NCBI RefSeq assembly: GCF_011405515.1
Contig: NZ_AP022671.1
Location: 2,356,001 to 2,420,000 of the forward strand
Direction: 5' to 3'
Length of the DNA: 64,000 nt
DNA from: Nitrospira sp. KM1
GTDB taxonomy: Bacteria; Nitrospirota; Nitrospiria; Nitrospirales; Nitrospiraceae
This document shows positions 3,589-52,324 of the stretch, piece after piece. Within the stretch, counting starts at the first letter, position 1; every line of letters begins with the position of its first letter. The notes under the pieces are model-generated. The model had not been told where the DNA came from and made no database searches. It saw nothing but the letters and a program-made list of their open reading frames with translations. The translations under genes and the position numbers were made by a program.

Positions 3589-4383
3589 ATGATTCCATTG
3601 CGGTCAGTCACGAAACTTCAGCCACACGAGCCGTCAGATCTCTATCCCTTCAATGTGCCGGCTATCAACGCTCTGGTGCGGTTGCAATTCGACTCACCCG
3701 TCACTTTCTTTGTGGGGGAAAACGGATCTGGAAAGTCGACCCTGCTCGAAGGGATCGCGGCTGCGGCGAATGCCATCGTCGTTGGCGCGGAGGATATCGT
3801 TCGAGATGGAACATTGGAACACGCCAGACAATTGGCCAACCGTCTTCGGATTTCATGGTCGAAAAAAACGCGCCGTGGCTTTTTCATGAGAGCCGAGGAT
3901 TTTTTTAACTACACGAAGCGCGTCAATCGAATGAATCAAGAGCTGCGCGATCTGGAATCGGACTTTGAAACGAATCTCAAGGGATACGGGTTGCTGTTGG
4001 CAAAGTCCTCGGCTAAGGGGCAACGTGCTGCGCTCACCAAGCGATATGGGGACAATGCCGATGGACTGTCTCATGGGGAGAGTTTTCTAAACCTGCTGCA
4101 AACCCGGCTGGTCCCTTCCGGGCTGTATCTTCTGGATGAGCCCGAGGGTCCCCTGTCTCCGCTGCGTCAACTTTCTCTCATCGCGTTGATCAGAACGATG
4201 CTGCAGCAAGATACGCAATTTATCATTGCCACCCACTCGCCGATCCTTTTGGCTTTTCCGGGAGCAACGATCTTCAGTTTTGATGCGATCCCTCCTCAAG
4301 TCACCGACTATCATAATTTAGAGCATGTGACGTTGACGAAGGCCTTCCTCAACAATCCGCAAGCCTTCTTGAAGCACATTTGA
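3589..4383 (+). CDS. AAA family ATPase (ABC/SMC-like, stand-alone)
   Basis: A 264-residue P-loop ATPase. Walker A is GENGSGKST at about residues 43-51, the ABC-type signature region is LSHGES near residue 162, and Walker B is LYLLDEPEGPLSP near 178. A switch-like IIATHSPILLAFPG follows. The arrangement matches short stand-alone ATPases annotated as AAA_15/AAA_21-like predicted ATPases, whose function is generally unknown. No nuclease, toxin or transporter partner is adjacent, so there is no context to assign a role. The start at 3589 (ATGATTCCA) is taken because the conserved N-terminus (LRSVTKL, then the strand before Walker A) begins there. It appears intact inside a decaying region. Confidence 0.85.
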   Translation: MIPLRSVTKLQPHEPSDLYPFNVPAINALVRLQFDSPVTFFVGENGSGKSTLLEGIAAAANAIVVGAEDIVRDGTLEHARQLANRLRISWSKKTRRGFFMRAEDFFNYTKRVNRMNQELRDLESDFETNLKGYGLLLAKSSAKGQRAALTKRYGDNADGLSHGESFLNLLQTRLVPSGLYLLDEPEGPLSPLRQLSLIALIRTMLQQDTQFIIATHSPILLAFPGATIFSFDAIPPQVTDYHNLEHVTLTKAFLNNPQAFLKHI

Positions 4384-42512: not shown

Positions 42513-42717
42513 GCAGGAATGCGAAGGCCAGGAAGTTGGTTCCAAGAAAATGAATCTCATCATTCTAACAAACGGGTCCGAACCCCGCAAAGATATCCCT
42601 GATCGCGAAGCGCAGCCGCTACGGATATAACCATAGGTGCGTTGATCTTCCTCAAGGCGCATGTTACGGTCTTGTGCTGACATCTCGAAGATCGACCCGC
42701 CGACGGACCGCCTCACC

Positions 42718-43152
42718 ATGCGAGTTCGGTTGACATGTCCGCTTCTCTGCCTCTGCTGTTTCATCCTGGGCGTCTCTGTCGCTGGTGGAATCGATGCATG
42801 GGCCGCTCATCTTCCGGAGATCGATCATGCCTTTGGCCATACCGGTGAGGCCGATACCCGTGATCAGTCCGGAGGGGCGAGTATCCGGCGAGATTCTACG
42901 CCGCCTCAAAAGGCCTATGACCTGTTGGCGAGATTGCGTGAACGCGGCGGAGAGACGCTGCCCGGCTACATTGGTGGCAGGACATTCAAGAATCGGGAAC
43001 GGCGTCTGCCGGCAGGACGGTACCGGGAATACGACGTCAATCCGAAGCGGCGCGGCAGACCCAGGGACGCGGAAAGGATCGTAATCGAGCAAGACACCGG
43101 CAAAGCGTATTATACCGGAGACCACTACCGGACGTTCCTGGCCCTGAACTGA
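42718..43152 (+). CDS. Secreted barnase-like ribonuclease
   Basis: A 144-residue protein with a signal peptide (LLCLCCFILGVSVAGGIDA, cleavage near AWA). The mature C-terminus is a microbial RNase N1/barnase fold: ETLPGYIGGRTFKNRERRLP, AGRYREYDVNP, RDAERIVIE and TGDHYRTFLALN. The catalytic Glu (REYD), Arg (AERI) and His (GDHYRTF) that define barnase are all present. It should cleave RNA, with preference after purines by analogy. An ATG at 42661 would precede the signal and is rejected. A barstar-like gene begins 3 bases downstream. Confidence 0.9.
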   Translation: MRVRLTCPLLCLCCFILGVSVAGGIDAWAAHLPEIDHAFGHTGEADTRDQSGGASIRRDSTPPQKAYDLLARLRERGGETLPGYIGGRTFKNRERRLPAGRYREYDVNPKRRGRPRDAERIVIEQDTGKAYYTGDHYRTFLALN

Positions 43153-43155
43153 CCC

Positions 43156-43692
43156 ATGACGGTACGACCATCTCTCGCCGCACATATTCAATCGGTCAAC
43201 GCCCCTTGGGTATCCTTACTGGTTTGTAAGCCGGACCAGAAGCCGGAGGGCATGGCCAGACCTCCCGACGGTTTTGTCACCAAAGTCCTAAAAGGGAAGA
43301 ACTGTCGCAAGACGGCAGGGCTATTCGCTGAATTCTCTCGTGGCCTGCACTTCCCCGAGTACTTCGGTTCGAATTGGGATGCACTCGAGGAGTGTCTTGC
43401 CGATCTCGAATGGCTTCCGGCCAGAGGTTATGTCCTGATACTGACGGATGCGGAGGAGATTCTACGGGAGAATGAAGAAGAATATGCTACATTTCTCGAG
43501 ATTCTGAACGATGCCGGTGAGGCATGGGGGTCGGGGCAAGCCCGTGGAAGGCCCGTTCCATTTCACGCGTTGTTTGCCATCGCGGAACGACACCGGCGGG
43601 CCAGATCGAATTGGGGTATCGACGAGATGGACATCGGGAAACCCGTTAAGCCCGTAAAGAAGAGTATCAGGTCACGCTCCGGCCACCGTTAA
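43156..43692 (+). CDS. Barstar-like ribonuclease inhibitor
   Basis: A 178-residue cytoplasmic protein with a barstar-type domain: VTKVLKGKNCRKTAGLFAEF, HFPEYFGSNWDALEECLADL and GYVLILTDAEEIL. The FPxYFGxNWDALxDCLxDL pattern is the hallmark of barstar, whose acidic helix blocks the RNase active site. Extra residues at both ends make it longer than the 90-residue type. It has no signal peptide, so it protects the cytoplasm from the preceding exported RNase. The 3-base spacing indicates co-expression. Confidence 0.9.
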   Translation: MTVRPSLAAHIQSVNAPWVSLLVCKPDQKPEGMARPPDGFVTKVLKGKNCRKTAGLFAEFSRGLHFPEYFGSNWDALEECLADLEWLPARGYVLILTDAEEILRENEEEYATFLEILNDAGEAWGSGQARGRPVPFHALFAIAERHRRARSNWGIDEMDIGKPVKPVKKSIRSRSGHR

Positions 43693-46538: not shown

Positions 46539-47188
46539 TAGCAGGATGTTGAAAAAGTCGCTCATGTCACCCGCCCGCCCGGACGTGCCAAGACACGTCT
46601 TCACCAGGCTTTGTTCTCGCGGGACACTGCCGCCTCACTATCTCGGCGGTGTTCACAGGCGTGCCGTGCCTTATTCGGCACGGCGTGAACCTCAGAGGCT
46701 CAGCGTACGGCACGGGTACGAGCGGCTTGGGCCGCTCGGGGCGGCGGGTGAGACCCGGGAAGACGACTGTTCCCACAGTCGGTGGGCGGGCGGGTGAGAC
46801 CTGGGAAAACGACTGTCCCCGCAGTCGGTGGGCGGGCGGGTGAGACCTGGGAAAACGACTGTCCCCGCAGTCGGTGGGCGGGCGGGTGAGAAAGGATACG
46901 CTTCGCCTCAAGACACTGGGCGCTCACCGACTCGCGCCCGTCCGCAAACGTGACGCTCATTATTCTTCGCGCCGCGGACCTCGCTGCGGCCTTGCCCGCG
47001 GAGCGGCGCGTTGCGGGATGACGATTGCAAAGCAATCGGTGGGTGGGAGGGTGGAAATGGAATCGTCGGGGCGGGTGGGTGAAAAAAGACGTCTTTTTGA
47101 ACATCCTGTGAGTTCTTCCGATCCAATCAGCGATCATACCCGGCTCTGTGTTTTCCGGGGTCCAAAACAGTTTTTCAACAGCCTGCTA
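46539..47188. repeat. 650-bp inverted-repeat element of the Nitrospira dispersed type
   Basis: TAGCAGGATGTTGAAAAAG at 46539-46557 is the inverted copy of the right end at 47170-47188 (reverse complement TAGCAGGCTGTTGAAAAAC, two mismatches in 19). A second, inner right end (CTTTTTGAACATCCTG at 47093-47108) also pairs with the left end. The interior is G/C-rich, codes for nothing recognisable and holds a tandem repeat. It looks like a non-autonomous mobile element (MITE-like) or a nested pair of them. The name and family resemblance are from memory of Nitrospira genomes. Confidence 0.65.
46746..46883. repeat. Three tandem 46-bp units, each with a hairpin
   Basis: Units start at 46746, 46792 and 46838 and are 46 bases long; the second and third are identical and the first differs at a few positions. 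Each starts GGGTGAGACC and carries CGACTG...CAGTCG, an inverted repeat that would fold as a 6-bp stem. The third unit is followed by a partial copy start (GGGTGAGAAAGG). The repeat is uninterrupted, so it is not a CRISPR array. Confidence 0.85.
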
Positions 47189-47276: not shown

Positions 47277-47384
47277 TTACTTTTTCTTCTTATCCGACGG
47301 ACTTTCAGAAAACAGCAGCCAACCCAGAACGATGAATCCGATGGCGACGCCGGTAATGGCAAGCCAGGTACCAAGTTTATCCAT
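47277..47384 (-). CDS. 35-residue single-span membrane protein
   Basis: A short gene not reported by length-limited calling. It encodes MDKLGTWLAITGVAIGFIVL then GWLLFSESPSDKKKK: one membrane helix with a lysine-rich C-terminus. AAGGAA lies 6 bases before its ATG at 47384, inside the last codons of the preceding thioesterase gene, and the two genes overlap by 8 bases. This suggests translational coupling. The topology predicts a cytoplasmic tail. Function unknown. Confidence 0.7.
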   Translation of the reverse strand: MDKLGTWLAITGVAIGFIVLGWLLFSESPSDKKKK

Positions 47385-47814
47385 CTGCAGTTCCTTTCAC
47401 CCTCGAATCTAGCGCGGTGAAGATGGATTTGTCGAGACGCTTGACCTTCCCATTTTTCCCGGTGACGGCCAGTCGGGCTGATCCGGTCACCACGACATGC
47501 CCGTCGGATTTATCCCTTACAACGTGATTGATCCAGAACGAGGCTGCCGTAATCTCTGAAATGGTCGTCTCCACGAGAAGCGTGTCCCCGTAACGCGCCG
47601 GAGATTGATAGCTCAGTTCAGCCCGGACGACGACGAACATCGTGTCTTCGTCCATCAATGTTCTGACGGACAGCCCTCGCGACTCGAGAAACTCAGTCCG
47701 CGCACGTTCAAAGTACCTGAGATAGTTCGCGTAATAGACCACTCCACCGCAATCGGTGTCTTCATAATAAATCCTGATTTCCATGTGGTCTCGGAGGTCC
47801 CCAATACCGCTCAT
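47377..47814 (-). CDS. ybgC: YbgC-type acyl-CoA thioesterase
   Basis: A 145-residue hot-dog-fold thioesterase. The family core is IRIYYEDTDCGGVVYYANYL, then RYFERARTEFLESRGLSVRT, with the catalytic Asp in YEDTD, and FVVVRAELSYQSPARYGD in the second half. YbgC proteins are linked to envelope/lipid metabolism and often to the Tol-Pal system. ATGs at 47814 and 47784 are both possible. It overlaps the small membrane protein downstream, and lies about 90 bases downstream of the CARF protein on the same strand. Confidence 0.9.
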   Translation of the reverse strand: MSGIGDLRDHMEIRIYYEDTDCGGVVYYANYLRYFERARTEFLESRGLSVRTLMDEDTMFVVVRAELSYQSPARYGDTLLVETTISEITAASFWINHVVRDKSDGHVVVTGSARLAVTGKNGKVKRLDKSIFTALDSRVKGTADG

Positions 47815-47907: not shown

Positions 47908-49164
47908 CTAGAGTTTCAACACAGGAAATTTCGGCAATGATACGTCTTGAACACCGGTCAATTTAACAGCAAGGTCATAGAGCTGCTGGACCCGCTCGCT
48001 TTTGACTCCTTCAAATCCATGGCCTAATACGGCATGATTTACTGCGTCCAGCATGGGCTTCATCAGAGGCCACAAACGATTGAACGACTGGCCCGTCGGA
48101 TCGCCCAGTTCAGATAATGCCCGCCATTGCGCCGTCAGAGGCAATTGAAATTTACCATCAATGTCGCTGACATAACTTTTGCGACAGAGATCCTGCATGC
48201 CGGCCGGCAGCTGCTCGGGCTGTGCATCCCAAGTCTTGATGCGATGCCGTTTGAACAGTTGCCACTGCGAGAAGGCCTCGAGCGCTCGGACAAGCGAACG
48301 CATCGCTATTTCCGAATCCCCGGCCATCCGTAATCTTCGCTGGCAATAGGCCAATAGGTCGAGGGCGAGAAACTCCTTCACCTCGGCCGGATCAAGAACG
48401 AGCTTTTCCAAGAATCCGGTATTGGCTTTGACGGATGGAAGGACGTCCTTGAGTTCGGGCGGACCTCCGAACAACGCGGCCATTTCCAGCGCCTTGGATG
48501 CCGCTTTGAGCTTGTCCCATGCCGGCCGATGCTGGAGCCGGTCCCAGAAGTGATAGCCTTCGGCCAGATCAGCCAGGGCGTGATACAGAGGCTTGAGTCC
48601 TCCGCTCACCCGCGATTCGATGTGACGAAATACGGAACCTGCCGCGTGATAGTCACCTGCATTAAATAACTCGCTACCCTCCCGACGAGCGGTTTGCGAC
48701 GCCTCGTCCCACGGATTCGTCTGAATCCAGGTTTCCCGACTTTCTCCAGATGTCACGGACTCCCCATCCCGCCCGTCCACCATGCCCGCCAGGGATACGA
48801 TGCGGGAGGTAAATGGCATGGTGACGATCGCCAAGGCTGCCGCCATTGCCGGGGTGGCGCCGGTAAGGTCCACGACGAGGGAGCCCGGATCGATCCCCCA
48901 GTGCCGCAACAGTCCCGGAATGGATCGAGCCACATGCTGATAACACTCTGGGAAGCTCGTCGTATCCGCCAGGGCGATCCAGTCCCACCGTCGAGGCATC
49001 CGTGTAATCTGCGGCTGCAAGTCGCGTTCGACGGAAGGCTTGGCTGACTCCGGCAGAACAAAACACAGCGAGTCCGGCGACAGGCGATTGATTGAGCGCA
49101 CGGCCGGGGCCAGATCGTCCGTGAGGGTCACGATAAGAGCGCCCGCTGGTAGATCGGAAACCAT
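47908..49164 (-). CDS. CARF-HEPN protein of the TIGR02710 CRISPR-associated type
   Basis: A 418-residue protein. The first 130 residues look like a CARF (cyclic-oligonucleotide-sensing Rossmann) domain: GALIVTLTDDLAPAVRSINR and VVDLTGATPAMAAALAIVTM, where relatives have TGGTKPM. The remainder is the helical Cas02710-type region (GSELFNAGDYHAAGSVFRHI, LVRALEAFSQWQLFKRH) ending in a HEPN-like motif. Where active relatives have R-x6-H, here it is VNHAVLGHG (Val375 to His382), so the catalytic Arg is replaced. No cas genes or CRISPR array are in the window. Probably an orphan signalling receptor, with RNase activity doubtful. The family call is from motif memory. Confidence 0.82.
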   Translation of the reverse strand: MVSDLPAGALIVTLTDDLAPAVRSINRLSPDSLCFVLPESAKPSVERDLQPQITRMPRRWDWIALADTTSFPECYQHVARSIPGLLRHWGIDPGSLVVDLTGATPAMAAALAIVTMPFTSRIVSLAGMVDGRDGESVTSGESRETWIQTNPWDEASQTARREGSELFNAGDYHAAGSVFRHIESRVSGGLKPLYHALADLAEGYHFWDRLQHRPAWDKLKAASKALEMAALFGGPPELKDVLPSVKANTGFLEKLVLDPAEVKEFLALDLLAYCQRRLRMAGDSEIAMRSLVRALEAFSQWQLFKRHRIKTWDAQPEQLPAGMQDLCRKSYVSDIDGKFQLPLTAQWRALSELGDPTGQSFNRLWPLMKPMLDAVNHAVLGHGFEGVKSERVQQLYDLAVKLTGVQDVSLPKFPVLKL

Positions 49165-49295: not shown

Positions 49296-49730
49296 ATGAT
49301 CTGGTGGTACTGGATGGTACTGGGTCTGGTGCTGTTCGGTGCAGAAATGACGACTCCGGGAGGATTCTACATGATCTTCTTCGGACTATCGGCCATCGCC
49401 ATCGGCACACTGGGAGGACTCGACCTTGTGGTGACCGATTGGCTGCAATGGCTATTGTTCTCGGTCATTGCCGTCGCCTCTCTCCTCCTCTTTCGCGGGC
49501 CGCTCATGGAACGGATCAAACCTACTACTGAACGATCGTCCCGGATCGATTCGTTGGTGGGAGAAATTGCCGTTTCGCTCGCTCCGCTGGGAACGGGGGA
49601 AACGGGAAAAGCCGAATTGCGCGGTACCACATGGAACGTCAAAAATATCGGACCGACGACGCTCGGTAAAGGACAGCGAGGACGGGTGGCACAGGTGGAC
49701 GGTCTCACGCTGTTGATTACTGCCGAATAA
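49296..49730 (+). CDS. NfeD-like membrane protein
   Basis: A 144-residue protein with three to four N-terminal helices (WYWMVLGLVLFGAEMTTPGG, then MIFFGLSAIAIGTLGG) and a C-terminal OB-fold NfeD domain (GEIAVSLAPLGTGETGKAEL, RGTTWNV, KGQRGRVAQVDGLTLLIT). NfeD proteins partner with SPFH/stomatin proteins in membrane microdomains; here the stomatin-like gene follows 40 bases later. It is the short NfeD form without the ClpP-like protease domain. Confidence 0.93.
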   Translation: MIWWYWMVLGLVLFGAEMTTPGGFYMIFFGLSAIAIGTLGGLDLVVTDWLQWLLFSVIAVASLLLFRGPLMERIKPTTERSSRIDSLVGEIAVSLAPLGTGETGKAELRGTTWNVKNIGPTTLGKGQRGRVAQVDGLTLLITAE

Positions 49731-49770
49731 CACATGCTCTTGTGACGCGCACATGATGGAGGATGGTGGT

Positions 49771-50709
49771 ATGCCAGGTGGATTTCTCGTCGTACTCATT
49801 CTCGCCCTGCTGGTTCTATACGTCATCGCCAAAACCGCCGTCGTCGTTCCACAACAAAGCGCCTACGTGGTCGAGCGGCTGGGGAAATACTCCGCCACGC
49901 TCGATGCAGGCTTCCATATCCTGCTGCCCTTCGTCGATACGATCCGATACAAGCACTCCTTAAAGGAAATGGCTGTCGACATTCCTGAACAGGTCTGCAT
50001 CACTCGCGACAACGTGCAGGTGTCGGTGGACGGGGTGCTGTACTTGAAGGTGCTCAATCCCGAGCGGGCATCGTACGGAATTCATGATTATCACTTTGCG
50101 CTCTCGCAACTGGCGCAAACGACGCTTCGGAGCGAAATCGGCAAGATCGAGTTGGACCGCACATTCGAAGAACGTACCAATATCAATATCCAGGTCGTCA
50201 ATGAGCTGGACAAAGCATCCGAGCCCTGGGGCGTCAAAGTCCTCCGCTACGAAATCAAGAACATCACCCCTCCCAAAGACGTCCTGAACGCCATGGAGAA
50301 GCAGATGCGGGCGGAACGGGAAAAGCGCGCGTTGATTCTCACGTCCGAAGGCGCGCGGGACGCCGCCATCAATCAGGCCGAGGGTGAGAAGCAACAGGTG
50401 ATCAAAGCCTCGGAAGCGAAGAAACAGCAACAGATCAACGAGGCCGAAGGAGCCGCCGCCGCAATCCTGGCCATTGCCCAGGCCACGTCTGAAGGACTGC
50501 GCAAGGTTGCCGAATCCATCCGCGTTCCCGGAGGGGAGGAGGCCGTGCAATTGCGTGTGGCTGAACAATACATTTCAAAGTTCGGCGAGCTCGCGAAATC
50601 CACGAACACCCTGGTCTTGCCCGCCAGTGTTTCCGACGTCGGATCCATGATCGCCTTGGCCATGAACGCGGTCCGTCAATCCTCCCGTTCGAACCCGTCG
50701 AAGACGTAA
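49771..50709 (+). CDS. SPFH/band 7 stomatin-like protein (QmcA type)
   Basis: A 312-residue membrane protein. After one N-terminal helix (GFLVVLILALLVLYVIAKTA) comes the band-7 domain: VVVPQQSAYVVERLGKYSAT, LPFVDTIRYKHSLKEMAVDI and VQVSVDGVLYLKV, then the coiled coil KQMRAEREKRALILTSEGAR and a C-terminal hydrophobic ASVSDVGSMIAL. It forms membrane scaffolds with NfeD. The ATG at 49771 is favoured since GGAGG lies about 9 bases before it; 49753 would overlap that site. Confidence 0.95.
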   Translation: MPGGFLVVLILALLVLYVIAKTAVVVPQQSAYVVERLGKYSATLDAGFHILLPFVDTIRYKHSLKEMAVDIPEQVCITRDNVQVSVDGVLYLKVLNPERASYGIHDYHFALSQLAQTTLRSEIGKIELDRTFEERTNINIQVVNELDKASEPWGVKVLRYEIKNITPPKDVLNAMEKQMRAEREKRALILTSEGARDAAINQAEGEKQQVIKASEAKKQQQINEAEGAAAAILAIAQATSEGLRKVAESIRVPGGEEAVQLRVAEQYISKFGELAKSTNTLVLPASVSDVGSMIALAMNAVRQSSRSNPSKT

Positions 50710-50724
50710 CCACGGCCGTGCGGT

Positions 50725-50753
50725 TTGACAGCACCGCGCGCCTTCAATAGAAT
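50725..50753 (+). promoter_or_regulatory. Strong sigma-70 promoter of gmhA
   Basis: TTGACA at 50725-50730 (perfect -35) and TAGAAT at 50748-50753 are exactly 17 bases apart. The gmhA ATG starts 8 bases after the -10, at about the expected transcription start, so the mRNA would be leaderless or nearly so. Confidence 0.7.
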
Positions 50754-50760
50754 TCGCGCC

Positions 50761-51339
50761 ATGAACGATGTTGTCCTCGCCGCATTTACGGAAAGTGCTT
50801 CCGTCAAGACACAGTTCGCCCGTGAACAGGCCGATCGAATTCTTCAGGCGGCAAAGACGATCTCCGCGGCGTTTCGCGACGGGAGAAAAGTCTTGCTGTT
50901 CGGGAACGGAGGCAGCGCCACGGATGCGGCCCACATTGCCGCAGAGTTTGTCGGCCGTTACAAGCGCGAGCGTCATCCGCTTCCCGCCATCGCATTGGCG
51001 ACCGACATCGCCGCAATCACGTGTATCGCCAATGATTACGGATTCGACGAGTTGTTCGCCAGACAGGTCCGTGCGCACGGGCAACGGGGCGACATCGCGA
51101 TCGCCATCAGCACGAGCGGGAACTCGCCGAACGTGTTGAAGGGCGTCGAGGCGGCCGCGGTCGCAGGTTTAACCACCATGGCCTGGACGGGAAGCAAGGG
51201 TCAAACACTCGCTGGGATGGTCACCTACCCCTTCATCGTTCCCTCGGCAGTCACCGCGCGGATTCAGGAGTGTCATATCACGCTGGGACACGTCTTCTGC
51301 GAATTGATCGAGGAAGAACTCCTTGACACCGCGTCCTGA
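50761..51339 (+). CDS. gmhA: Sedoheptulose-7-phosphate isomerase
   Basis: A 192-residue SIS-fold enzyme that makes D-glycero-D-manno-heptose 7-phosphate, the first step of LPS heptose synthesis. Hallmarks are KVLLFGNGGSATDAAHIAAE, ACAI-like IACIANDYGFDELFARQVRA, GDIAIAISTSGNSPNVLKGV and VPSAVTARIQECHITLGHVF with the zinc/active-site residues (Glu, His). The ATG sits right after the -10 box of its promoter. The deoxyhypusine-synthase-like gene overlaps its end by 17 bases. A matching adenylyltransferase is at 56138. Confidence 0.95.
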   Translation: MNDVVLAAFTESASVKTQFAREQADRILQAAKTISAAFRDGRKVLLFGNGGSATDAAHIAAEFVGRYKRERHPLPAIALATDIAAITCIANDYGFDELFARQVRAHGQRGDIAIAISTSGNSPNVLKGVEAAAVAGLTTMAWTGSKGQTLAGMVTYPFIVPSAVTARIQECHITLGHVFCELIEEELLDTAS

Positions 51340-52324
51340 TCGGCGTCGTCCCTCTCGTCCGACCCGAGGCCTGATCGCTCCGATCGACGTGACGGAGCTG
51401 AAAACCTATCCCCTGACAAGACGGCACAGCAAGGTGCGGATGACCGATTTCGCCACACCCTGGCGGCCTGGTGGAAGCTTTGACCGGTTTTACCGCTCGC
51501 TTCCCGATATCCTCGGTGTGAAAACGTTGCGCGCCGTGGCGGCGGCCATCGCTCGGGCGCATCGAAACGGCAAACCCGTGATCGCGGGCTTGGGAGCGCA
51601 TGTCGTGAAGGTCGGCCTCTCGCCGGTTCTCGTGGATCTGTTGCGACGGAACATCATCACAGCGGTGGCTATGAACGGAGCGGGGATCATCCACGATTTC
51701 GAGTTGGCGCTCTCCGGACATACATCGGAGGAAGTTGACGCCGAAATCGATAGCGGTCGGTTCGGCATGGCGGAAGAAACGGGACGCATGATCAACGAAG
51801 CGATCGTTCAAGGCGCCGCGGACCGAGAAGGACTGGGGGAAGCGGTGGGTCGCTATATTAACCGACACAAGACCGTCTTTCGATACCGCGATACGAGCAT
51901 TCTCTCCATCGGAGCGCGGCTCGGCACTCCCGTCACCGTACATGTCGCGCTCGGGACTGACATCATTCACATGCATCCTTCCGCGGACGGCGCGGCAATC
52001 GGCACGACGTCGCTGTTCGATTTCCGTCGATTGGCCGCCGTTGTCGCCGGCATGGAGGGCGGCGTCTATCTCAATATCGGCTCGGCCGTCATTTTGCCGG
52101 AGGTGTTTCTGAAAACCGTATCTCTCGGGCGCAATTTGGGACGGAGCCTGTCCGACATCACGACCGTGAACATGGACTTCCTCTCCCATTATCGCCCGAT
52201 CACCAATGTCGTGCGGCGTCCCACGCAGAAAGGCGGCAAGGGGTACTCGCTGATCGGACACCATGAAATCATGGTGCCATTGCTGGCCGCCGCCGTCCAC
52301 GAAGAACTGGGATCGAGGCCATGA
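51323..52324 (+). CDS. Deoxyhypusine-synthase-like protein
   Basis: A 333-residue NAD-binding protein. The N-terminus has TYPLTRRHSKVRMTDFATPW; the body has KPVIAGLGAHVVKVGLSPVL, AVAMNGAGIIHDFELALSGH, SILSIGARLGTPVTVHVALG and a conserved tail HYRPITNVVRRPT and GHHEIMVPLLAAA. This follows the DHS-like family of bacteria, which lack the eIF5A substrate of true deoxyhypusine synthase, so its reaction is unknown. The TTG at 51323 is used because the conserved N-terminus begins upstream of the next ATG. It overlaps gmhA and the SprT-like gene, indicating an operon. Confidence 0.88.
   Translation: MTPRPDRRRPSRPTRGLIAPIDVTELKTYPLTRRHSKVRMTDFATPWRPGGSFDRFYRSLPDILGVKTLRAVAAAIARAHRNGKPVIAGLGAHVVKVGLSPVLVDLLRRNIITAVAMNGAGIIHDFELALSGHTSEEVDAEIDSGRFGMAEETGRMINEAIVQGAADREGLGEAVGRYINRHKTVFRYRDTSILSIGARLGTPVTVHVALGTDIIHMHPSADGAAIGTTSLFDFRRLAAVVAGMEGGVYLNIGSAVILPEVFLKTVSLGRNLGRSLSDITTVNMDFLSHYRPITNVVRRPTQKGGKGYSLIGHHEIMVPLLAAAVHEELGSRP

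Follow-up and report, generated by a model that had tools for sequence, protein, structure and literature searches.

A core CARF-HEPN protein without its catalytic arginine in the order holding Nitrospira: probable exaptation of an ancient CRISPR effector

Introduction

Throughout the order holding Nitrospira, a main group of nitrite oxidisers, a family of CRISPR effectors has apparently turned into a core chromosomal gene. The best explanation for this state, with a probability of roughly 0.62 for the reading taken as a whole, is that an ancient CRISPR effector was exapted as an RNase-dead and cOA-independent core protein, which would probably serve as a scaffold binding RNA or protein. Within this reading, the exaptation of a dead enzyme is very likely, and the RNA-binding role, for which analogy with other inactive HEPN proteins is the guide, is put forward tentatively, at somewhat less than even odds. 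The degenerate condition of the protein is lineage-wide, ancient and under selection, with intact sister lineages, none of which was foreseen in the first-pass annotation of the gene.

Identity and Predicted Fold of the Protein

The window, i.e., the whole stretch of 64,000 nucleotides of Nitrospira sp. KM1 that was analysed, encodes the protein with the following features:

47908..49164, minus strand: CARF-6H-HEPN protein of the TIGR02710 type, RNase-dead as judged by sequence, 418 aa (profiles and fold)
48700..49164, minus strand: CARF domain, about residues 1-155 (fold match)
48844..48870, minus strand: degenerate CARF motif II, D99-L-T-G-A-T-P105-A-M (TTHB144 equivalent: DLTGGTK94PM)
48493..48687, minus strand: Csm6 6H domain, residues 160-224 (PF22205, E=8.6e-15)
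47956..48363, minus strand: Csm6-type HEPN domain, residues 268-403 (PF09670, E=4.1e-13)
48016..48042, minus strand: degenerate HEPN motif V375-NHAVLG-H382-G, catalytic Arg replaced (alignment)

A reading frame on the plus strand at 47908-49164 was ruled out by nine in-frame stops. The initial designation as a TIGR02710-type protein combining CARF and HEPN domains was borne out by the TIGR02710, Pfam and PADLOC profiles, since the match to TIGR02710 (E=7.6e-34, 117.3 bits versus a cut-off of 83.9) lies above cut-off, PF22205 and PF09670 are matched at the E-values listed, and the PADLOC CARF-HEPN model PDLC01812 is matched with 663 bits over 418 of 418 positions, i.e., the profile search did return a CARF hit. 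Structure prediction with AlphaFold (mean pLDDT 82, pTM 0.76) likewise yielded a Csm6-like fold along the whole length of the protein, the best PDB match of the model being TtCsm6 5fsh with Foldseek (E=1.2e-12) and the Thermus Csm6 8jh1_A with VIA-align 2 (Z 19.9, 376 residues, rmsd 12.8, a high value that fits domains hinged differently). In the predicted model, residues 7-150 superpose on CARF proteins with an rmsd of about 2 over 122 residues. On the strength of the profile matches and of the predicted fold, the CARF-6H-HEPN identity is considered secure.

Loss of Catalytic and Ligand-Binding Residues

In TTHB144 of T. thermophilus, a cA4-activated RNase, the K94A variant neither binds nor cleaves cA4 and is no longer activated as an RNase, and the substitution H368A abolishes RNase activity (PMC6599890). 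In the alignment of the two proteins, P105 of the window protein falls at the place of K94, V375 at the place of R361, and H382 at that of H368, i.e., the histidine is retained. As such, the two departures read early on from the sequence, namely a HEPN motif VNHAVLGHG missing its arginine and a CARF loop TGATPAM instead of TGGTKPM, both hold, and the protein possesses neither the R-x4-6-H catalytic pair nor the CARF motif II lysine. The accompanying suggestion of a receptor that lost its RNase function is upheld at the level of residues, where the catalytic arginine and the sensing lysine are gone; judged from these losses, the protein would neither exhibit RNase activity nor bind cA4.

The same condition prevails in a residue survey of 98 sequences of the window's order (families f1, f2, and f4), where the place of K94 is never occupied by K, P, A, S, V or T being found instead, and the place of R361 is never occupied by R, A, S, V or T standing there (three truncated sequences do not cover this site). 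The HEPN histidine is retained in all f1 and f2 sequences covering that site, and with it some residual or altered activity may remain in the proteins of these two families; it is replaced in 11 of the 22 f4 sequences, from orthologues that are still syntenic. Turning to the outgroup (f10 and f12, which are other orders of the class) and CRISPR-type sequences, the HEPN arginine is present in 12/12, and the place of K94 holds K in 10 of these 12, the other two being an f12 sequence with R and the Rubrobacter sequence with T. The larger tree set adds more CRISPR-type copies from the phylum, each of which has K, R and H. Regarding Rubrobacter radiotolerans, a CRISPR-linked TIGR02710 protein encoded on a plasmid (L118:4941-6170) exhibits GGTT for GGTK but retains both the Arg and the His of its HEPN motif.

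Several arginines were considered as relocated catalytic residues and discarded, namely R276 and R293, because both are also invariant in canonical proteins already having R361, and R328 and R391, because neither lies within an R-x4-6-H motif. A conserved catalytic arginine at another position, i.e., the finding that the first-pass annotation had named as contrary to its own interpretation, was not encountered among these four.

Vertical Inheritance Under Purifying Selection

The gene is nearly universal in its lineage, being present in 211 of the 270 genomes of the class, nearly always as a single copy, and in 159/175 genomes of the window's own family (counted from the list), with open frames in nearly all genomes carrying it. 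In a tree of 64 proteins, a quick one calculated without bootstrap and in which some CRISPR-type branches are long, the 36 sequences of the order group as one clade (SH-aLRT 100), whose sister is f10/f12 (SH-aLRT 88), followed by f23, which belongs to the same phylum (SH-aLRT 99), and a single change suffices to explain the loss of the arginine. Over 239 pairs, nearly all inside the order, the median dN/dS amounts to 0.112 for the gene versus 0.114 for YbgC and 0.101 for the SIS-domain neighbour. Moreover, protein distances within the order track those of the neighbours (Spearman 0.80 for YbgC, 0.88 for SIS, and 0.95 for the DHS-like protein), with 0/500 permutations as high. From the dN/dS values, the neighbour-tracking distances and the tree, it follows that the gene is vertically inherited under strong purifying selection and is not decaying. 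A recent horizontal import is ruled out, as the tree follows the taxonomic groups and the distances track those of the neighbours, and so is a fresh pseudogene by a dN/dS of about 0.11. Phage relatives of the window protein were sought and none was found; those on plasmids share about 25% identity with it and carry CRISPR-type annotations.

Successive stages can be followed, i.e., residues intact in the sister orders, R and K lost in the order, and H lost later in part of f4, which makes the before and after of the probable exaptation visible.

The different parts of the protein do not evolve alike. The CARF is the fastest-evolving part within the order, and the CARF/HEPN distance ratio is 1.61 in the order, 1.27 in the intact orthologues (a small sample of 9 sequences) and 0.93 in the CRISPR-type copies. 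In the HEPN half, K310, W312, C327, R328, and D373 are newly invariant or nearly invariant in the order. Taken together, a fast CARF and new invariant residues in the HEPN half suggest that sensing would have been lost and that the function would reside in the 6H/HEPN half. In f1, D99, T104, and M107 of motif II are invariant (A103, T104, M107, and A108 in 20 f1 sequences), and given the invariance of D99, T104, and M107 some ligand may still bind to the CARF of the f1 proteins.

Messenger Sources and CRISPR Systems in the Genomes

The genome from which the window originates consists of one closed 4.51-Mb contig, 99.99% complete, where profile searches gave zero matches for Cas1, Cas10 palm2, and, as regards a CD-NTase such as a CBASS effector would need, SMODS. 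The mCpol search returned zero matches in this genome and 40 relatives, the sole control matching being below cut-off. As such, the whole-genome scan for cas10 or nucleotidyltransferase genes, proposed at the outset, is negative for Cas10, SMODS and mCpol, and its PF21654 part gave no match in the genome, with a positive control that did not match either. No type III CRISPR locus with Cas10, linked or elsewhere in the genome, accompanies the protein, nor is the gene part of an mCpol + CARF-HEPN module, its neighbours being other genes. The early remark that no cas gene or CRISPR array surrounds the gene stands, and for Cas1 and Cas10 it extends genome-wide. Conversely, the new cyclic-oligonucleotide signalling branch envisaged in the first-pass annotation is not supported, with no detectable Cas10, mCpol, or SMODS cyclase and with the cA4-binding lysine gone from all 98 order sequences surveyed.

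In the search of relatives, Cas10 lies above cut-off in 6/61 genomes. Regarding the carriers of intact orthologues, Cas10 is above cut-off in one f10 genome (G016) and two f23 genomes (G285 and G307), and not in a third f23 genome, 81% complete (G317). Five f12 genomes (loci L111-L114 and L116) depart from this pattern in that they exhibit intact motifs, with one R for K, and no Cas10 above cut-off; SMODS is found in 1/5 of them, and their weak sub-cut-off Cas10-palm matches, which we take to be GGDEF-like, were left out of the counts. In f23, a CARF-HEPN gene encoding K, R, and H is located in housekeeping surroundings, adjacent to rho (Pfam), with prfA-, murA-, and his-like genes recognised by eye (L167, L168, and L169), and in two of these genomes Cas10 is encoded on a different contig; this intact copy is possibly a chromosomal cOA effector acting in trans. 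Besides their degenerate core copy, two genomes, G218 and G219, harbour a second, canonical TIGR02710 copy (L124:7873-9150 and L125:262-1605, respectively), which in G218, of the same order, is intact and adjoins cas1 (and cas2 by eye).

Conserved Linkage to ybgC

The neighbours of the gene in the window are as follows:

47377..47814, minus strand: YbgC/FadM-family acyl-CoA thioesterase, downstream and co-directional (TIGR00051 above cut-off, PF13279/PF03061)
49296..49730, plus strand: NfeD-like protein, divergent neighbour (PF01957, synteny)
49753..50709, plus strand: SPFH/Band 7 (stomatin-like) protein, divergent neighbour (PF01145, synteny)
50725..51339, plus strand: SIS-domain protein, divergent, conserved across the order (PF13580, synteny)
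51323..52324, plus strand: conserved divergent neighbour with no Pfam match, deoxyhypusine-synthase-like (DHS-like) by eye only (synteny)

Wherever ybgC was found, it lies downstream on the same strand (83/83 loci); it was not found in six loci despite more than 800 bp of downstream sequence. Most of the gaps between the two genes measure 2-24 bp in f2/f4; those in f1 are longer and vary more, with a median of 117 bp. Co-transcription with ybgC can be inferred but is uncertain in f1, because the gaps there often exceed 100 bp and other DNA intervenes in some genomes. The constancy of this neighbour suggests a link to the YbgC pathway. Upstream and divergent come the SIS and DHS-like genes, preceded in many f1 genomes by those encoding NfeD and SPFH. 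Of the downstream arrangement described initially, i.e., a co-directional YbgC and a membrane protein, the former is correct, and the latter (NfeD) is actually divergent and upstream. In the outgroups f10, f12, and f23, the surroundings differ from those of the order, and the stretches read at the f12 and f10 loci contain no recognisable cas gene.

Some other elements of the window deserve mention in their own right. A barnase-type ribonuclease (42661-43152, plus strand, PF00545, 4.4e-14) is followed by a barstar (43156-43692, plus strand, PF01337, 1.6e-26), and this pair of RNase and inhibitor, located about 4 kb from the CARF-HEPN gene, has homologues at L008 and L041. Downstream of ybgC, a GC-rich 46-bp unit is repeated in tandem (46739-46891, 3.3 copies, 95% matches); a CRISPR array was ruled out there, the units being contiguous without spacers. 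Farther away, an AbiEii/OLD-like AAA ATPase (3589-4383, plus strand, PF13304, 5.8e-11) is possibly defence-related.

Proposed Scenario and Rival Explanations

In the scenario considered best, the ancestor would have been a type III CRISPR ancillary ribonuclease, Csm6/Csx1-like and of the TIGR02710 type, which would have become a vertically inherited chromosomal gene in the Nitrospirota. The ancestor of the window's order would then have lost the cOA-binding lysine together with the catalytic HEPN arginine, and purifying selection would since have preserved its product as a core protein without cOA activation or RNase activity. This protein would adopt a Csm6-like dimeric fold and owe its present function to the 6H/HEPN half, the likeliest role being that of a constitutive scaffold binding an RNA or protein partner without cutting, as catalytically inactive HEPNs without R-x4-6-H have been proposed to play a nucleic-acid-binding role (Anantharaman et al. 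2013, PMC3710099). A more specific version, where the order-wide ancient exaptation would have produced a CARF-HEPN protein with a housekeeping role and no catalysis, directed at a new ligand or RNA and functionally coupled to the YbgC thioesterase, is conceivable and on balance unlikely.

Among the rival explanations, the one retaining most credit, improbable as it is, views the protein as a housekeeping receptor with a CARF pocket retuned to a different small molecule and a HEPN half that passes the signal on to a partner, for instance YbgC. The gene is indeed conserved and selected, and motif II stays patterned in f1 though K is gone, but a CARF evolving faster than any other part in the order, and relatively faster than in the intact relatives, with P, A, S, V, and T alternating at the place of K94, is at odds with it. 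Slightly less probable is that RNA is still cut, constitutively or on another trigger, by an altered active site combining the histidine with another basic residue such as R328 or K310. Both of these are invariant or nearly invariant across the order, and no f1 or f2 sequence covering the site lacks H382; the loss of this same histidine in 11/22 f4 orthologues, which nevertheless stay syntenic, speaks against such an active site.

The protein could also still serve defence, by buffering canonical Csm6 proteins, by acting on them as a dominant-negative partner or by serving as a cOA sponge, which the co-occurrence of degenerate and canonical copies with Cas10 in G218, G219, and G121 would suit. 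This is rather far-fetched for a lineage in which most relatives carrying the gene lack Cas10 (above cut-off in 6/61), so that there is nothing to buffer, and in which the lysine needed for cA4 binding is lost. That the gene is a functionless remnant, decaying since its CRISPR system disappeared, would fit the missing catalytic residues and the absence of cas genes, but a dN/dS of about 0.11 (239 pairs), frames open nearly everywhere and conserved synteny make this the least credible rival by far.

Significance

The repurposing of CRISPR parts is known, notably by mobile elements (PMC12669027). Here, the residue losses, the selection acting on the gene and its YbgC neighbour, mostly without CRISPR, suggest that a defence protein has been recruited for another cellular job. 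For genome annotation, the case serves as a warning: the label “CRISPR-associated” on a gene of these genomes should not be taken to imply a CRISPR system or a cOA response.

Comparison with Known Systems

The closest characterised counterpart is TTHB144, a TIGR02710-type Csx1/Csm6 ribonuclease and ring nuclease of T. thermophilus (PMC6599890), which shares with the window protein the CARF-6H-HEPN order and the HEPN histidine, with about 25% identity across 95% of the length, but is encoded in a cas1/cas2/cas10 locus and possesses K94 and R361, whereas the window protein has neither residue and no cas locus. The predicted fold matches Csm6 of the same species (TTHB152; PDB 5fsh, 8jh1) over the whole length; TTHB152 exhibits H422 as well as R415 and the lysine of a TSGTK motif, the last two being absent from the window protein. 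Likewise, the Csm6 (Cas_Cas02710) group is listed in the table of PMC3710099 as having the R-x4-6-H motif, unlike the window protein. The PADLOC model PDLC01812, “CARF1--CARF_HEPN,” is matched over its full length and by its name implies a CARF-HEPN effector, but it does not record the residue loss, the core-gene status or the YbgC linkage; given a match of 418/418 positions at 663 bits, that public CARF collection evidently includes sequences of this lineage already. In the literature, no description of the degenerate core-gene state of this lineage was found, an earlier mention in the Makarova 2020 CARF classification being possible. The sequence family as such is known, and the degenerate, core-gene state reached in this lineage is apparently the new part.
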